From positions 1 through 46,042 of the forward strand of contig DQPL01000090.1 in NCBI GenBank assembly GCA_015664885.1: a DNA stretch of 46,042 nt, given 5' to 3'. The translations under genes and the position numbers were made by a program. Positions 39,261 to 46,042 of the stretch are shown here, piece after piece. Source of the DNA: Gemmatimonadota bacterium (GTDB lineage: Bacteria; Gemmatimonadota; Gemmatimonadetes; Longimicrobiales; Gaopeijiaceae). The notes beneath the pieces are model-generated. The model was not told the DNA's origin, did no database searches, and saw only the letters and a list, made by a program, of their open reading frames with translations. The first letter of the stretch is position 1. Every line of letters begins with the position of its first letter.

Positions 39261-39644
39261 CTACTGCTTGATACCTAGCTGCTCGGCGACGACCGTGCGG
39301 AACTCGTTGGCGCCCACCGGCTTCGGAATGACCGGGTGACCACTGATCTCGTAGCCATCCCGCCCTATTTCCTCAGAGCTCACCAGACCCGTCAGGAAGA
39401 TCGCATGCATGCTGGAGAACTTCTTGTCGCGCCGGAGCTCCGCCAGGACTTCTCCCCCGTCCAAGGTCGGCATTATGATGTCGAGCACGATGACGTTGGG
39501 GCGAAATTCGTGAGCGACTTCGATAGCCTGGGTGGGGTCGTTGATCGCGATCACGTCGTAGTGGTCGGTACCCTCGAGGAACCGGACGAGGACTCTGGTC
39601 ACGGTCTCGTCGTCGACGACGATCAAGACGCGCTTCTTCTTCAT
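39261..39644 (-). CDS. Single-domain response regulator (CheY-like)
   Basis: 127 residues from the ATG at 39644 (MKKKRVLIVVDDE). The acidic pair is Asp11-Asp12, the phosphoacceptor is Asp55 in VIVLDIIMPTLDGG, the switch threonine is in AIFLTGL and the conserved Lys is in PKPVG. There is no output domain, so it acts by protein contact or as a phosphorelay intermediate. No histidine kinase is adjacent. It is divergent from the class V aminotransferase gene; their start codons are only about 105 bases apart. An earlier in-frame ATG at 39746 would overlap that region and is unlikely. Confidence 0.88.
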   Translation of the reverse strand: MKKKRVLIVVDDETVTRVLVRFLEGTDHYDVIAINDPTQAIEVAHEFRPNVIVLDIIMPTLDGGEVLAELRRDKKFSSMHAIFLTGLVSSEEIGRDGYEISGHPVIPKPVGANEFRTVVAEQLGIKQ

Positions 39645-39748
39645 CAGGTCGTCCCTGCCGCGGGGGTCGCTCTTGGAGCGATGCGGAACCCGTGCCCAGA
39701 TGAAGTCAATGCTTGCCGCCAATCCACATGCCTTGATTTGGTCCAACC

Positions 39749-40927: not shown

Positions 40928-41151
40928 GACTCGCCCTGAAGATCGCAGGCGCCTTGCTTTCGATACTCATCTTGGCTGCCGGCGGGACCTATGTCTGGGC
41001 GTCCACAAGCAGCGCTAGGATTCTTTCGCGCACGTTCGAAGTCCACACAGTGACCTTCATGATGCCATACGCCCAAAACATGACCGAGGTCGAGTTGGAG
41101 GCGCTCTGGACGTGCCTCCGCTCGGTTTCCCCGATGCCGAGTCGTCCGTAG
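40924..41151 (+). CDS. Short ORF with an N-terminal membrane anchor, possibly a gene fragment
   Basis: 75 residues beginning MRLALKIAGALLSILILAAG, GTYVWASTSSARILSRTFE and VHTV. One membrane helix followed by a short periplasmic start of this kind is common at the N-terminus of membrane-bound c-type cytochromes, where the heme CxxCH motif follows. Here there is no CxxCH, and after about residue 50 the sequence stops resembling protein and ends. The ATG overlaps the aminotransferase stop, indicating translational coupling. I read it as the head of a gene whose remainder was lost; a genuine small membrane protein is the alternative. The remaining 77 bases to the sigma-factor start hold nothing else that I recognise. 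Confidence 0.4.
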   Translation: MRLALKIAGALLSILILAAGGTYVWASTSSARILSRTFEVHTVTFMMPYAQNMTEVELEALWTCLRSVSPMPSRP

Positions 41152-41217
41152 AGCGGCGCCGCTTTCGCGGCCGCTTTGAAGAAATTCTGCGAGTCCCGCG
41201 TAGGAACAGTCACGTAC

Positions 41218-41223
41218 AAGGAG
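41218..41223 (+). promoter_or_regulatory. Ribosome-binding site deciding the sigma-factor start
   Basis: AAGGAG, five bases before the TTG at 41229. It marks that TTG as the start over the in-frame ATG at 41112. Confidence 0.7.
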
Positions 41224-41228
41224 CCAGA

Positions 41229-41795
41229 TTGCAGCCTGAGCTGGAGCGGGAACTCATACGCAAGTGCAAAATCGGTGACACTCGGTTCTACGAGCCCCTC
41301 GTCCGAGCCTACGAGCCGTCAGGTCTACGACTCGCAGTGGCTATGATGGGCAATACGGAAGACGCGCAGGACGCCCTCCAAGAGGCGTTCGTGAAGTCAT
41401 ATAGGTCGCTGCACCGTTTCGATCTGCGCCAGCCCTTCGGCCCGTGGTTCTTTCAGATCCTGAGAAACCAGTGCAGGGACATGCTGCGCAGCCGGCAGGC
41501 GCGCTTCAAGATGGAAACGCTGGATGAGCGACTGGAGGCTCGTCCAGCGAGCAGCGAGAAGGGCCCTGAGCGGGCCCATCAACGAACTGCAGCGCGCCAG
41601 ACACTTTGGTTGGGGCTCCAGCAGATCGGTGATGAACACCGTGAAATTTTGGTCCTGAAGGAACTCGAAGGGTTCAGATATTCGGAGATCGCCCAGATCT
41701 TGGAAATACCGGAAGGGACGGTGGCGAGCCGTCTCTATCACGCGCGACACGCACTCAAGGACGCGCTCGTCGAGCAGGGCGTCGAGTACCCATAG
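41229..41795 (+). CDS. ECF-type RNA polymerase sigma factor
   Basis: 188 residues from TTG 41229. Region 2 includes AVAMMGNTEDAQDALQEAFV and KSYRSLHRFDLRQPFGPWFF, which bind core enzyme and the -10 element. Region 4 is LGLQQIGDEHREILVLKELE, then GFRYSEIAQILEIPEGTVAS and RLYHARHAL, the helix-turn-helix that reads the -35 element. Linker and C-terminal end are normal for group 4 (ECF) sigma factors. An anti-sigma gene begins 18 bases later, the standard pairing. The operon's own promoter is probably sigma-controlled but is not identifiable by eye. Confidence 0.93.
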   Translation: MQPELERELIRKCKIGDTRFYEPLVRAYEPSGLRLAVAMMGNTEDAQDALQEAFVKSYRSLHRFDLRQPFGPWFFQILRNQCRDMLRSRQARFKMETLDERLEARPASSEKGPERAHQRTAARQTLWLGLQQIGDEHREILVLKELEGFRYSEIAQILEIPEGTVASRLYHARHALKDALVEQGVEYP

Positions 41796-41813: not shown

Positions 41814-42239
41814 ATGGCCGACCGAGTCACCAAAGAAGACCTGATGCGCTACATAGACGGCGAAATGCCGCCCGAGCAGCGCGCGTGCTTGGACGCTGAG
41901 CTAGCGCGCTCGACCGAGTTGAAGCGAGAGTTGGCGATTTTCCGCGCGATGCGGACGGATTTCCAGGGACTGAGCTTCGACCCCGGTACCTGCCACAAGT
42001 CCGTGTGGGACAAGGTGAACGCCAGCGTGACCAGACCGATCGGTTGGGTCCTGGTAGTCGTCGGGGTCATCGTTTGGACGGCCTACGGCGCGTACCTATT
42101 CACTACCTCGCCGGCAAATGCATGGGAAAAGCTTGCCACCGGCGCCATTGTGATCGGTATTCTCACACTCTTGGCTTCCGTGATCTGGAAGCGCTACCAG
42201 GATTGGGGCGTCGACCCCTATAAGGACATGCATCGATGA
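41814..42239 (+). CDS. Anti-sigma factor, two-helix membrane type
   Basis: 141 residues. The N-terminal 60 residues (TKEDLMRYIDGEMPPEQRAC, then LDAELARSTELKRELAIFRAM) form the helical sigma-binding domain of the anti-sigma type. The usual zinc motif HxxxCxxC is absent; one Cys (in QRAC) and a CHKS pair remain. Two membrane helices follow at about 77-95 (GWVLVVVGVIVWTAYGAYLF) and 105-125, with a short C-terminal tail, so little is exposed outside. It should hold the ECF factor at the membrane until a signal arrives. It overlaps the YbjQ gene by 4 bases. Confidence 0.8.
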   Translation: MADRVTKEDLMRYIDGEMPPEQRACLDAELARSTELKRELAIFRAMRTDFQGLSFDPGTCHKSVWDKVNASVTRPIGWVLVVVGVIVWTAYGAYLFTTSPANAWEKLATGAIVIGILTLLASVIWKRYQDWGVDPYKDMHR

Positions 42240-42559
42240 TCATCGTCACCACGGCCGACATTCAGGGTTCGGAAATCAAGAACACCTTGGGCATGGTGCG
42301 CGGTAGCTCGATCCGTTCGCGGCATATCGGTCAGGACATCATGGCGGTGCTGCGAAACATCGCGGGCGGCGAAGTCATCGAGTACACAAAAATGCTCGCG
42401 GAAGCCCGGGAGCAGGCACTCGACCGCATGATCGAAGAGGCCCAGACGCTGGAAGCCGACGCAGTCATATGCGTTCGCTTCCAGACCTCGATGGTCATGG
42501 CGGGCGCAGCAGAGATGCTCGCCTACGGAACCGCAGTAACCCTCGAGCCCACCAGCTAG
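42236..42559 (+). CDS. YbjQ/UPF0145-family protein
   Basis: 107 residues of the YbjQ family (a small pentameric fold, sometimes called the heavy-metal-binding UPF0145 domain). Characteristic pieces: IIVTTADIQGSEIKNTLGMV, VRGSSIRSRHIGQDI, LRNIAGGEVIEYTKML and EADAVICVRFQTS. There is no signal peptide and no assigned activity for the family. The ATGA overlap with the anti-sigma gene shows it belongs to the stress operon, so it is probably induced by the same ECF factor. The gene is full length and intact. Confidence 0.88.
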   Translation: MIIVTTADIQGSEIKNTLGMVRGSSIRSRHIGQDIMAVLRNIAGGEVIEYTKMLAEAREQALDRMIEEAQTLEADAVICVRFQTSMVMAGAAEMLAYGTAVTLEPTS

Positions 42560-42567
42560 GCTCTTCC

Positions 42568-42592
42568 TTCGCCCGGGAGCGTTCCGGGCGAA
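42568..42592 (+). terminator. Hairpin after ybjQ
   Basis: A perfect nine-pair stem, TTCGCCCGG / CCGGGCGAA, with a seven-base loop, followed by CTTCTT. It probably ends the sigma operon; the T-run is weak. Confidence 0.55.
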
Positions 42593-42667
42593 CTTCTTGC
42601 TGATCCCGTGGAAGGCCGGCACTTTCGCGAGGCCCTGCCCCCGGGGCGGATCCTATGAGAACGACTC

Positions 42668-44929
42668 TTGGCGTCACTAGCCATCTTTCAACCAGACGTT
42701 CGAGCAGCGGCGCGCATGATCACCGCTCTCGGTGGAGCGCACGAGGTCGTCGTGCGCTCTTCCTGGCCTGCCCTGAATGGGGCGTTGGGGGGGGATTCGT
42801 TCGATGGTTGCGTGGTGGACGCGGATCACCCCAGCTGTGACGAAGCGCGCTCTGAAATCGAAGCGATTCGTAAGAGGTACTCTGGCCTGGCGATCATCGC
42901 CTATGCCGATGTCACGGGGGAGCTCGACTATTACAACCTGGGCGAGCTCGGTGTCGATGGCGTTCTTCTCGCTGAGCAACACGACGCCGCCCGGATCAGG
43001 AATCTGGTGGACCAGGCGATGGGGGCGAACAGCGCCGTGCAGGTGGCAAGCGAACTCGAGGGGCGGTTCGGCGCGCTGGGCTCACGCGCCGTGGCGTGGT
43101 CGATCGAACACTCCACGTCCGACGCCTCCGTCGAACGATTCGCGGCCGCAATGGGCCGTGCTCCGCCTGGCTTGGTCTCCGCGCTGCACCGCCACGGCCT
43201 GCCGTCCCCGAAGACGCTCTTGCTCTGGGGACGACTCCTGCGGGCTGGGGCCTATCTGGGCCGCAACCGCCGCACGGTCGAAGAGACGGCGTTCTTGCTC
43301 GGATACTCGACGGCGAGCCTTCTCGCTCGAGCCATGAAGAAGAACACCGGACTCACCGCCAGCAAGGTCGCGACCCGCGGCGGACTCGCGTGTGTGCAGG
43401 CGGCACTCTTCGCGAGACCTCGACGACCGGCGAAGCGGGAACGCGCGCTCAGGGGCCTCTCGGTCCTGCTCGCCGTTTCGATTCAGGCGGCGTGCGCGTC
43501 GGCAGGAGGCGTCGGCCCAGGGGCCATCGACCGCCATGCGATCGAGCAGACACTGGACTCAGCACCCTTCGACCAGGTGCACTTCGGGGTGCTGGCCATC
43601 GACGCCCAAACCGGCCGCACGCTGTTTTCGCGCAATGCACACCAGAAGTTCATTCCGGCGTCGAATCAGAAAATCTTGGTCACGGCCACCGCGTTGTCTG
43701 TGCTGGGGCGGGATTATCGGTACCGGACCGAAGTATGGGCGACGGGCTCCACGCTTGGATCGATGCTCGACGGGGACCTGGTCGTTCTCGCATCCGGAGA
43801 TCCCTCCTTGTCCGACCGATACTGGGACTCGGGCGAGGCGGCGCTTCATGCGATCGCGGACTCACTCAGGCGGCGTGGGCTCGAGCACGTAACTGGTTCG
43901 GTGTTCGTCGACGTGTCTGCGTGGGACTCAGCCACCGTAGGACCGACATGGGAAGTGGCGGACCTACCCGGCCGATCGGGAGCCACAGGTGGTGCCTTCG
44001 CGATCGACGAGGGGGAGATTCAGCTCATCGTCGCCGGCGGCGCGGCGGTAGGCGCACCTGCGTTTGTCGAATGGTCTCCGATGGGCAGCGACGACTTCGT
44101 CATCTCGCGCCTCAAGACCTCCCCACCCGGCAGCCCAACCCGGGTCCGCCCGAGCTACCTGCCCGAATCGCGCAGGTTGGTTCTGGAGGGACGTGCGCAG
44201 CTCGGCACGGTGGACACGCTGTCCTTCGCGATCCGGGACCCCGTTCGCCAGGCAACGGCGGCGCTCGGCAGGGCGATCGCAGCTGCGGGCATCGTGGTCG
44301 AAGATCAGGCGCGCGTCGTGTGGGTGGACAGCGTGCGGGTCGGGCGCGGATGCTTGTCGGGTTCGGTGCGAGAATGTGCGAACGCCGGGCTCATCTTCGC
44401 ACTCGAGTCGCCTCCGCTCTCGCGGCTGGTGGCCGGAATTCTGGAGCCGAGTCAAAACTGGATGACCGAACAGCTCATTCGTACTCTTGGAGCCGAGCGG
44501 GGCGAGGAGGGTAGTTGGTCCGAGGGCGTCGACGTGATTCGCAGCTTCCTCACCGAGCAGGTCGGGGTCGACAGCCTGGATATAGCACCGAGGGATGGAT
44601 CAGGGCTCTCGGCCTACAACCTGGTGACACCGCGAGCGCTGGTCCGCATTCTGCAGTACATGCGGAACGGCACCAACGCCGCTGTTTATCGCACGGCACT
44701 GGCGGAACCGGGCGAAGAAGATTCAACGCTCGAGCGGCGCCTAATGGACCTGGAGCGGCGGCTCTTCGCTAAGACAGGAACGATCTCAAACGTGAACTCT
44801 CTGTCAGGGTATCTCGTAAGGGAGGACGGCACAGAGGTGATTTTCTCTATCCTTTCGAACGGATCCGGACTCCCAGCGTCTCGCGTGCGTGCAGCAATTG
44901 ACGACGTCGTGAGGGCCCTGGCGAGATAG
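42668..44929 (+). CDS. Receiver-like + AraC-type HTH + PBP4 (D-Ala-D-Ala carboxypeptidase) in one frame
   Basis: One uninterrupted 753-codon frame from TTG 42668. Residues 1-118 read as a degenerate receiver domain (SFDGCVVDADHPS with Asp51; conserved Lys absent). Residues 150-240 match an AraC-type double helix-turn-helix, including TVEETAFLLGYSTASLLARA and MKKNTGLTASKV. At 250-276 there is a basic stretch and then GLSVLLAVSIQAAC, a short hydrophobic core ending in a lipobox-like Cys276. From 285 on is a complete PBP4/DacB: SxxK at Ser332 (ASNQK), SxN at Ser595 (SQNWMTEQL) and KTG at Lys702 (AKTGTISNVNS). PBP4 enzymes trim or cleave peptidoglycan peptides outside the cytoplasm. Either this is a ToxR-like fused sensor-regulator or two genes joined by a lost stop; a GTG at 43394 could start a separate lipoprotein PBP4. 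Confidence 0.8.
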   Translation: MASLAIFQPDVRAAARMITALGGAHEVVVRSSWPALNGALGGDSFDGCVVDADHPSCDEARSEIEAIRKRYSGLAIIAYADVTGELDYYNLGELGVDGVLLAEQHDAARIRNLVDQAMGANSAVQVASELEGRFGALGSRAVAWSIEHSTSDASVERFAAAMGRAPPGLVSALHRHGLPSPKTLLLWGRLLRAGAYLGRNRRTVEETAFLLGYSTASLLARAMKKNTGLTASKVATRGGLACVQAALFARPRRPAKRERALRGLSVLLAVSIQAACASAGGVGPGAIDRHAIEQTLDSAPFDQVHFGVLAIDAQTGRTLFSRNAHQKFIPASNQKILVTATALSVLGRDYRYRTEVWATGSTLGSMLDGDLVVLASGDPSLSDRYWDSGEAALHAIADSLRRRGLEHVTGSVFVDVSAWDSATVGPTWEVADLPGRSGATGGAFAIDEGEIQLIVAGGAAVGAPAFVEWSPMGSDDFVISRLKTSPPGSPTRVRPSYLPESRRLVLEGRAQLGTVDTLSFAIRDPVRQATAALGRAIAAAGIVVEDQARVVWVDSVRVGRGCLSGSVRECANAGLIFALESPPLSRLVAGILEPSQNWMTEQLIRTLGAERGEEGSWSEGVDVIRSFLTEQVGVDSLDIAPRDGSGLSAYNLVTPRALVRILQYMRNGTNAAVYRTALAEPGEEDSTLERRLMDLERRLFAKTGTISNVNSLSGYLVREDGTEVIFSILSNGSGLPASRVRAAIDDVVRALAR

Positions 44930-44936
44930 ATAGCAG

Positions 44937-46042
44937 ATGAGCAAATACGAGCTTCCCGACCTCCCGTCCGACAAGGAACTGGGACTCACCGCGGAAGAGA
45001 TCAAGGAACTCGAGGCCGAGTTCGGCGACACCGGTCCGGAGATGAGCCCGGAAGAGATGGCCGCGTTGCTGGGAGAGGAGCCGCCCGCGCCGGCGCCGAC
45101 AAGCGACAAGCCATCCGCGAAACAGACGGCCGCGGCCGGAACCGACGTTGGCCAACCATCCAAGAGGGAGCTGCGGGCCGCCGAGCGAGCGCTCAAGAAG
45201 GCCGAGGACGAGGCAGCCAAGGCCTCGCGCGCACGAGCCAAGCAGGAGAAGGAGGCCGCGAAGGACAAGGCCAAACAGAAGAAGAAAGCGGCATCTGGGG
45301 ACGACGAAGCCGCCGAGTCCGAAGAGGCCGCGCCAGAGGCCATCGAAGAAGGCCCGCGCAGCAAGTGGCGGGGCCTGGCAACCGCGGCGATTCTGCTGGC
45401 GGCATGCATCTTCGCGAGTAGCCGGACAGGCCAGCCTCGCCCCGTGCCCGCGAATGCCGGTGAAGCGGAGTTTTCCTCTGCGCGGGCGATGGGGACGCTG
45501 GTGGAGATCGCTCGAGCCCCGCATCCGACCGGATCGCCCGAACACGCGCGGGTGCGCGCCTACCTGATTGATCGCCTGACCGCGTTAGGACTCGCGCCCG
45601 AGATTCAAACCACGACCAGTGTCATCCAGCGCGGGTCCTATGTGCAGTCCGCCACAGTGCGCAACGTGGTGGCCCGGATCGCCGGCGCCGCCTCGACCGG
45701 GGCGGTGCTGGTCACCGCCCACTACGACAGCCGTGAGCTCGCGCTGGGCGCGGCCGACGATGGCTCCGGTGTGGTCTCGATCCTCGAAGCATTGCGGGCG
45801 ATGCAGGCGAGCGAGCCTCTCCAGAATGACCTGATCGTTCTGTTCACCGACGCGGAAGAACTGGGCCTTCTCGGCGCGCGCGCTTTTGTAAACGAACACC
45901 CATGGATGGCTGACGTGCGCCTAGCGCTCTCCCTTGAGATGAGGGGCGGTGGTGGACCGTCGATCATGTTCGAGACGGGCCAGGAAAACGGTTGGATCGT
46001 GCGTGCGTACCGGGCTGCAGACCCAACCGCCTACGGCAACTC
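44937..46042 (+). CDS. Membrane-anchored M28-family peptidase (partial, runs off window)
   Basis: 368 residues are visible and the frame is open at the window edge. Residues 1-145 are cytoplasmic, highly charged and Ala/Lys/Glu-rich, probably coiled coil (RAAERALKKAEDEAAKASRA). One membrane helix at about 146-160 (LATAAILLAACIFA) puts the peptidase outside. M28 metal motifs: VTAHYDSRE (His262), GAADDGSGVV (Asp275) and FTDAEELGLLG (Glu307-Glu308). The remaining ligands lie past the edge, near LSLEMRGGGG. Family members are zinc aminopeptidases. The gene starts 7 bases after the regulator-PBP4 gene, so the two cell-envelope hydrolases are likely co-expressed. Confidence 0.88.
   Translation, partial: MSKYELPDLPSDKELGLTAEEIKELEAEFGDTGPEMSPEEMAALLGEEPPAPAPTSDKPSAKQTAAAGTDVGQPSKRELRAAERALKKAEDEAAKASRARAKQEKEAAKDKAKQKKKAASGDDEAAESEEAAPEAIEEGPRSKWRGLATAAILLAACIFASSRTGQPRPVPANAGEAEFSSARAMGTLVEIARAPHPTGSPEHARVRAYLIDRLTALGLAPEIQTTTSVIQRGSYVQSATVRNVVARIAGAASTGAVLVTAHYDSRELALGAADDGSGVVSILEALRAMQASEPLQNDLIVLFTDAEELGLLGARAFVNEHPWMADVRLALSLEMRGGGGPSIMFETGQENGWIVRAYRAADPTAYGN

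Follow-up and report, generated by a model that had tools for sequence, protein, structure and literature searches.

An uncommon natural fusion of a receiver-like/AraC-type regulator with a lipoprotein-type PBP4 in Gemmatimonadota

The fused gene and its neighborhood

The stretch of Gemmatimonadota DNA analyzed here (46,042 nucleotides; called the window below) carries near its right end a gene in which two proteins of known families are joined. In particular, a receiver-like domain, an AraC-type DNA-binding domain, a short hydrophobic segment and a PBP4 enzyme follow one another through 753 codons without a stop, just as a first-pass annotation of the sequence had read it. The frame is opened by a TGA at 42656-42658 and has no earlier in-frame start after that codon than its TTG, which is also the start in the related genome G001, with TTG, GTG or ATG at the equivalent residue in the remaining fused relatives. 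In what follows G000 is the genome of the window, N is the regulator half (or the separate regulator gene), C is the PBP4 half (or gene), and L numbers denote loci. The features of the region are as follows.

41112..41795, + strand: ECF sigma factor gene (Pfam Sigma70_r2/r4_2; a conserved neighbor in most relatives)
41814..42239, + strand: probable anti-sigma factor gene (weak zinc-finger and anti-sigma matches)
42236..42559, + strand: YbjQ family gene (Pfam PF01906, E 1.3e-36; a conserved neighbor)
42597..42625, + strand: promoter-like element TTGCTG-N17-CACTTT, between ybjQ and the fused gene
42668..44929, + strand: fused gene, a single open frame of 753 aa, stop codon included in the coordinates (same fused frame in relatives)
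42668..43021, + strand: atypical receiver domain, residues 1-118 (alignments, AlphaFold2, Foldseek)
43022..43123, + strand: inter-domain region, residues 119-152, mostly the end of a long helix at 107-147 (AlphaFold2)
43124..43387, + strand: AraC-type DNA-binding domain with two helix-turn-helix units, residues 153-240 (HTH_18, PDB profile match, dN/dS)
43388..43453, + strand: basic, fast-evolving linker, residues 241-262, containing V243 (GTG 43394-43396)
43454..43495, + strand: hydrophobic segment, residues 263-275, and lipobox-like Cys276 (codon 43493-43495; Cys in 13 of 13 fused proteins)
43523..44926, + strand: PBP4 (peptidase S13) domain, residues 286-753 (PF02113, TIGR00666, alignment to 1w5d and 2ex2)
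43661-43672, 44450-44458 and 44771-44779, + strand: PBP4 motifs SxxK, SxN and KTG (residues 332-335, 595-597 and 702-704)
44937..46040, + strand: M28 peptidase gene, running past the window end (Pfam PF04389; conserved downstream in the fused branch)

In the family to which the window's genome belongs the cluster is kept as genes for an amidohydrolase, an aminotransferase/cysteine-desulfurase-like protein, the ECF sigma factor, the anti-sigma factor, YbjQ, N, C and the M28 peptidase. The ECF operon that had been noted upstream (ECF, anti-sigma and YbjQ genes) and the M28 gene immediately downstream, across a gap of 7 bases, are both present in the window.

The promoter-like element has counterparts, TTGCTG-like N17/18 CA(T/C)NTT, 59-122 bases ahead of N in 11 loci that carry N, those of the fused branch and of G019; the pattern occurs in only two PBP4-alone loci and is rare elsewhere in the loci. 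Its presence before N in the N-carrying loci points to a possible promoter belonging to the fused gene itself. In G136 a seeming small antitoxin/PIN-type toxin pair lies between ybjQ and the fused gene (L171 5690-6370), and there the promoter-like element is located downstream of the pair. A terminator-like hairpin at 42568-42592 was considered and rejected, as it is absent in G001 and the region folds no better than shuffles.

A second pattern, TGAAG(A/G)-N13-22-(C/T)CCGTA, resembles an ECF promoter; 19 of 44 loci (e.g. L162, L166, L174) have it directly ahead of the sigma gene, and there are 26 matches overall in 830 kb, both strands included. This placement suggests possible autoregulation of the sigma gene; the strict form of the pattern has no match in the window itself. 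We also note two other groups of genes. A receiver-only gene (39261-39746, - strand; Pfam Response_reg, E 5.5e-17) lies opposite the cluster, with same-place matches in G014 and G091 only among the loci compared. The genome's only other S13/PBP4 gene (G000:C99:61459-62940, + strand) has a receiver-like/AraC paralogue (64696-65373, - strand) less than 2 kb away, with an aminotransferase paralogue sitting between the two (L191), and comparable S13/regulator proximity is found in G001, G007, G011, G014, G019 and G103.

The regulator and PBP4 halves

The first 118 residues had been described as a degenerate receiver. Pfam Response_reg gives no match to this part at the sequence level, and it is the structure model that bears out the fold: an AlphaFold2 model of residues 1-262, built from a 32-row alignment, has a mean pLDDT of 92 and displays five strands in the order of a receiver, then a helix of 41 residues and after it the AraC helices, and Foldseek matched its first part to the receivers CheY4, Spo0F and MicA (TM 0.85-0.87 of the target). 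Most of the switch residues have been replaced; in the alignments the acidic pair has become Q8/P9, the Thr is Tyr79 and the Lys is Ala102. Asp51, which occupies the CheY D57 position within D-A-D-H-P, is the sole switch residue retained, and it is present in nine of the ten full-length fused proteins.

The AraC double helix-turn-helix is found at about residues 153-240. Pfam HTH_18 (PF12833) matches at 159-235 with E 6.7e-8, scoring 34.8 bits for residues 1-277 and 33.2 bits in the full protein (cut-off 33.6), and the DNA-binding domain compared with PDB profiles gave the AdpA DNA-binding domain at E 3e-16, with VirS and SoxS also matched. The N family is present in 143 of the 395 genomes of the phylum (matches at E 1e-9), and the N-family frames inspected across the phylum are stand-alone genes of about 260 aa, among which no other N-PBP4 fusion was seen. 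Candidates for independent fusions, long open frames with N-family hits in other families of the phylum (in G247, G245, G218, G299, G283, G316, G186 and G215) proved to be stop-free read-through upstream of a stand-alone gene, with no PBP4.

The PBP4 half is intact, as had been claimed. Pfam Peptidase_S13 (PF02113) spans residues 292-746 (E 3.3e-75) and NCBIfam PBP4 (TIGR00666) scores 220 bits against a cut-off of 107.8. S332/K335, S595/N597 and K702-T703-G704 align with E. coli PBP4 (2ex2), and the three motifs are invariant in the ten fused proteins. S595-Q596-N597, the SxN motif, lines up with S-D-N in E. coli PBP4; a nearby SAYN was ruled out as this motif by alignment to the solved PBP4 structures. 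We read the C half as a lipoprotein-type PBP4, a predicted D,D-carboxypeptidase/endopeptidase. An AlphaFold2 model of the whole chain has two well-folded parts and a low-confidence joint at residues 252-284.

Relatives, descent and selection

N and C are joined in one full-length frame in ten species (G000, G001, G008, G127, G132, G133, G136, G137, G138 and G139), so that a search of the phylum for the same architecture, which the first-pass annotation had proposed, finds it well beyond the window. These full-length relatives reach down to 47% identity, and G000 and G001 are 87% identical. Shortened in-frame fusions are present in three more genomes: G014, where about 70 residues are gone between the receiver and the DNA-binding domain, G006, which is without the DNA-binding domain, and G091, which retains only its last part. 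Eight genomes have N and C adjoining in different frames (G005, G094, G098, G029, G100, G101, G011 and G019). In G019, the nearest outside relative with both genes, the PBP4 ATG is about 2 bases past the regulator stop, so a single stop loss or small indel would fuse them. It had been asked whether the homologues are consistently split; split pairs do occur outside one branch, in these eight genomes, yet the ten-species branch is fused without a stop.

Many other relatives carry PBP4 without N, and in G007, G104, G103, G003 and G102 N is present and a PBP4 match beside it is absent. In G129 and G130 PBP4 has been deleted and N is directly followed by the M28 gene, and the N tree places both genomes among its fused rows. 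The G129 regulator (L178 6731-7489) ends at a stop soon after the DNA-binding domain, and that of G130 (L179 2375-3370) still has a hydrophobic tail.

A single branch of 25 rows (SH-aLRT 82, not starred) holds all 13 of the fused rows in the PBP4 tree; its remaining rows are without N, and it contains no split pairs. The N tree places the split G019 among the fused rows, but a tree constrained to keep the fused rows together is not rejected (p-AU 0.249). We conclude that two genes of one cluster that once lay side by side, for a receiver-like/AraC regulator and for a lipoprotein PBP4, have fused naturally into this frame. The simplest reading of its history is that one stop loss or small indel fused the genes, after which N was lost several times and PBP4 once or twice.

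Four fused pairs were compared by Nei-Gojobori counts. The dN/dS values are 0.13-0.24 for residues 1-240, 0.05-0.19 for the DNA-binding part and 0.12-0.22 for PBP4; the more distant pairs are close to saturated in synonymous change, which leaves G000/G001 (N half 0.24, PBP4 0.12) as the cleanest of the four. The linker is looser than the halves in three of the four pairs and is among the least conserved parts of the protein. The low values of both halves after the fusion argue that both still do something visible to selection.

The joint and the possible fate of the precursor

The two halves are connected in all 13 fused proteins by a basic stretch, then 12-16 uncharged residues, then a Cys, which in the window are the hydrophobic segment and Cys276 that had been pointed out before. 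The uncharged run has a median length of 13 residues in the fused proteins and likewise in the signal peptides of the unfused orthologues, its mean hydropathy is 1.95 in the former and 1.83 in the latter, and the net charges before and after it are +3.5/-0.5 and +3.3/-0.2, respectively. Judged from its sequence, the joining segment is of lipoprotein-signal length and short for a permanent membrane helix. The PROSITE PS00013 lipobox fits 7 of the 13 fused proteins and 24 of the 32 unfused ones that have such a Cys; the window's own lipobox-like site, I-Q-A-A-C, falls outside the strict pattern, and the Gln three before the Cys, found in G000, G001, G091 and G137, is unusual for a lipobox. The signal is at residues 263-276 of the full frame, and not at the N-terminus of the precursor as in bacterial lipoproteins. 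The window's genome has an LspA gene and three candidate M50 intramembrane proteases.

Since the joint resembles the signal peptides of unfused PBP4s and the Cys is kept in every fused protein, we lean toward a precursor that is lipidated and cut at Cys276, so that PBP4 ends up outside as a lipoprotein and the regulator inside with a membrane tag. Such a precursor would begin in the cytoplasm with the regulator part, and the former PBP4 lipoprotein signal, now in mid-chain, would insert in the membrane and send PBP4 outside. Cys276 would then be lipidated and signal peptidase II (LspA) would cut just before it, and the products would be a lipid-anchored PBP4 outside and, at the inner face of the membrane, a regulator that has a hydrophobic tail. 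Trimming of this tail by an intramembrane protease could set the regulator free, presumably to bind DNA, and the coupling would tie the amount or location of the regulator to PBP4 export. G129, which keeps the regulator alone inside the fused branch, indicates that the regulator can act without PBP4. We know of no established arrangement in which a cytoplasmic domain of ~250 residues precedes a cleaved lipoprotein signal. The individual steps do have precedents, in that signal peptidase II and then a site-2 protease act on lipoprotein signal peptides in other bacteria, and TcpP and ToxR undergo site-2 proteolysis (PMC10202637).

The first-pass annotation had put first a chain that stays whole, a one-chain sensor of the ToxR or BlaR/MecR kind, and had offered processing at Cys276, with separation of the halves, as the other outcome. 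The latter fits the data better, with the processing step itself being our proposal. As a whole chain the protein would be a one-component transmembrane sensor of the ToxR/CadC type: PBP4 on the outside would sense peptidoglycan peptides or beta-lactams, and the AraC domain would act on DNA from within the cell. The charges around the segment predict an N-inside/C-outside topology, both halves are under purifying selection, and both S13 genes of the genome lie close to receiver/AraC-type genes, all of which an uncut sensor would accommodate. It nevertheless seems unlikely, since relatives in the fused branch have lost either half while keeping the other, and since the hydrophobic run has the length of a signal peptide and ends in the invariant Cys; so short and signal-like a segment makes retention in the membrane doubtful. 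The poor conservation of the linker also stands against an uncut chain.

It is rather improbable that most PBP4 comes from a start codon within the linker (e.g. the GTG at V243), which would turn the fusion into mostly an overlapping two-gene arrangement with the full-length chain as a minor product. An ATG or GTG does lie in or just before the linker of every full-length fused gene tested and would give an ordinary lipoprotein signal peptide, with fair Shine-Dalgarno-like sequences in G008, G136 and G137, so a separate PBP4 could also be made. However, anti-SD binding does not exceed that of synonymous shuffles (a fraction of 0.07-0.92 of them bind as strongly) and the position and codon of the candidate start vary among the fused genes. 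Furthermore, with a start of its own for PBP4 the frame between the halves would no longer have to be kept free of stops or frameshifts, yet it is open in ten diverged genes.

Truncation or absence of the N half in G091, G006, G014, G024, G034, G134 and other members of the branch might suggest that it is a dying, functionless leftover on an otherwise normal PBP4, but the selection on full-length N halves (dN/dS 0.13-0.24 across their 240 codons, with 0.05-0.19 for the DNA-binding part) makes this very improbable. Finally, although the source assemblies are of metagenome type, the joining of two genes by an assembly or sequencing artefact has practically no chance of being the explanation, because ten species share the same full-length frame, the pair G000/G001 being at 87% identity, and the separately deposited records L034, L035 and L053 carry it as well.

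Comparison with known systems

Each half comes from a known family, and the order receiver-AraC-signal-PBP4 was not found in a non-exhaustive literature search, which agrees with the earlier remark that no described protein is known to have it. The same search found no AraC-PBP4 fusion and no regulator borne on a lipoprotein signal, and a survey of the domains that accompany AraC-type regulators mentions neither peptidase nor penicillin in its main text (PMC5882156).

The fused protein shares the full S13 domain and motifs with PBP4/DacB (E. coli 2ex2, B. subtilis 1w5d, Actinomadura R39), but adds a lipoprotein-type signal preceded by a 250-residue regulator. With AraC-type response regulators and the stand-alone Gemmatimonadota family it has in common the receiver fold, the long helix and the two helix-turn-helix units; the differences are that its switch residues except Asp51 are lost and that it continues into a membrane signal and PBP4. 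ToxR, TcpP and CadC have the same order, with an N-terminal DNA-binding part inside, a single hydrophobic segment and a C-terminal part outside, whereas here there is an AraC domain in place of a winged helix, a complete enzyme outside, and a segment that resembles a lipoprotein signal and keeps its Cys. BlaR1 and MecR1 likewise tie a penicillin-recognizing domain outside to gene regulation inside. By contrast, the fused protein has an S13 domain and not a class-D-like one, its DNA-binding domain is in the same chain, and Pfam and AlphaFold2 find in the 753 aa no BlaR/MecR-type multi-span membrane part with a cytoplasmic zinc metalloprotease. The pheromone precursors whose lipoprotein signal peptides are cut by LspA and then by a site-2 protease (PMC10202637) are the parallel for the proposed two-step processing and for a signal peptide with a later role, although the signal here would bear a folded 250-residue regulator and not a short peptide.

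This is, then, a real and uncommon fusion of two known families, whose function we infer from its parts. The embedded export tag probably cuts the halves apart, so that production of enzyme and regulator is physically coupled. A more speculative possibility, which we think doubtful, is that a lipoprotein signal peptide here has the regulator as its cytoplasmic portion, and that PBP4 export, lipidation and LspA cleavage free the regulator or retain it at the membrane, so that the cell would read lipoprotein export and the supply of a cell-wall enzyme from the processing of the precursor.

If the signal is cut, this would be a natural case in which one precursor delivers a regulator and a cell-envelope enzyme at a fixed ratio to opposite sides of the membrane, and possibly a way to read lipoprotein export directly. 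An uncut signal would make the protein a transmembrane regulator of AraC type that has a complete cell-wall enzyme as its outer domain. In either case, the split, fused and half-lost relatives are a ready comparative set for learning what the coupling does.
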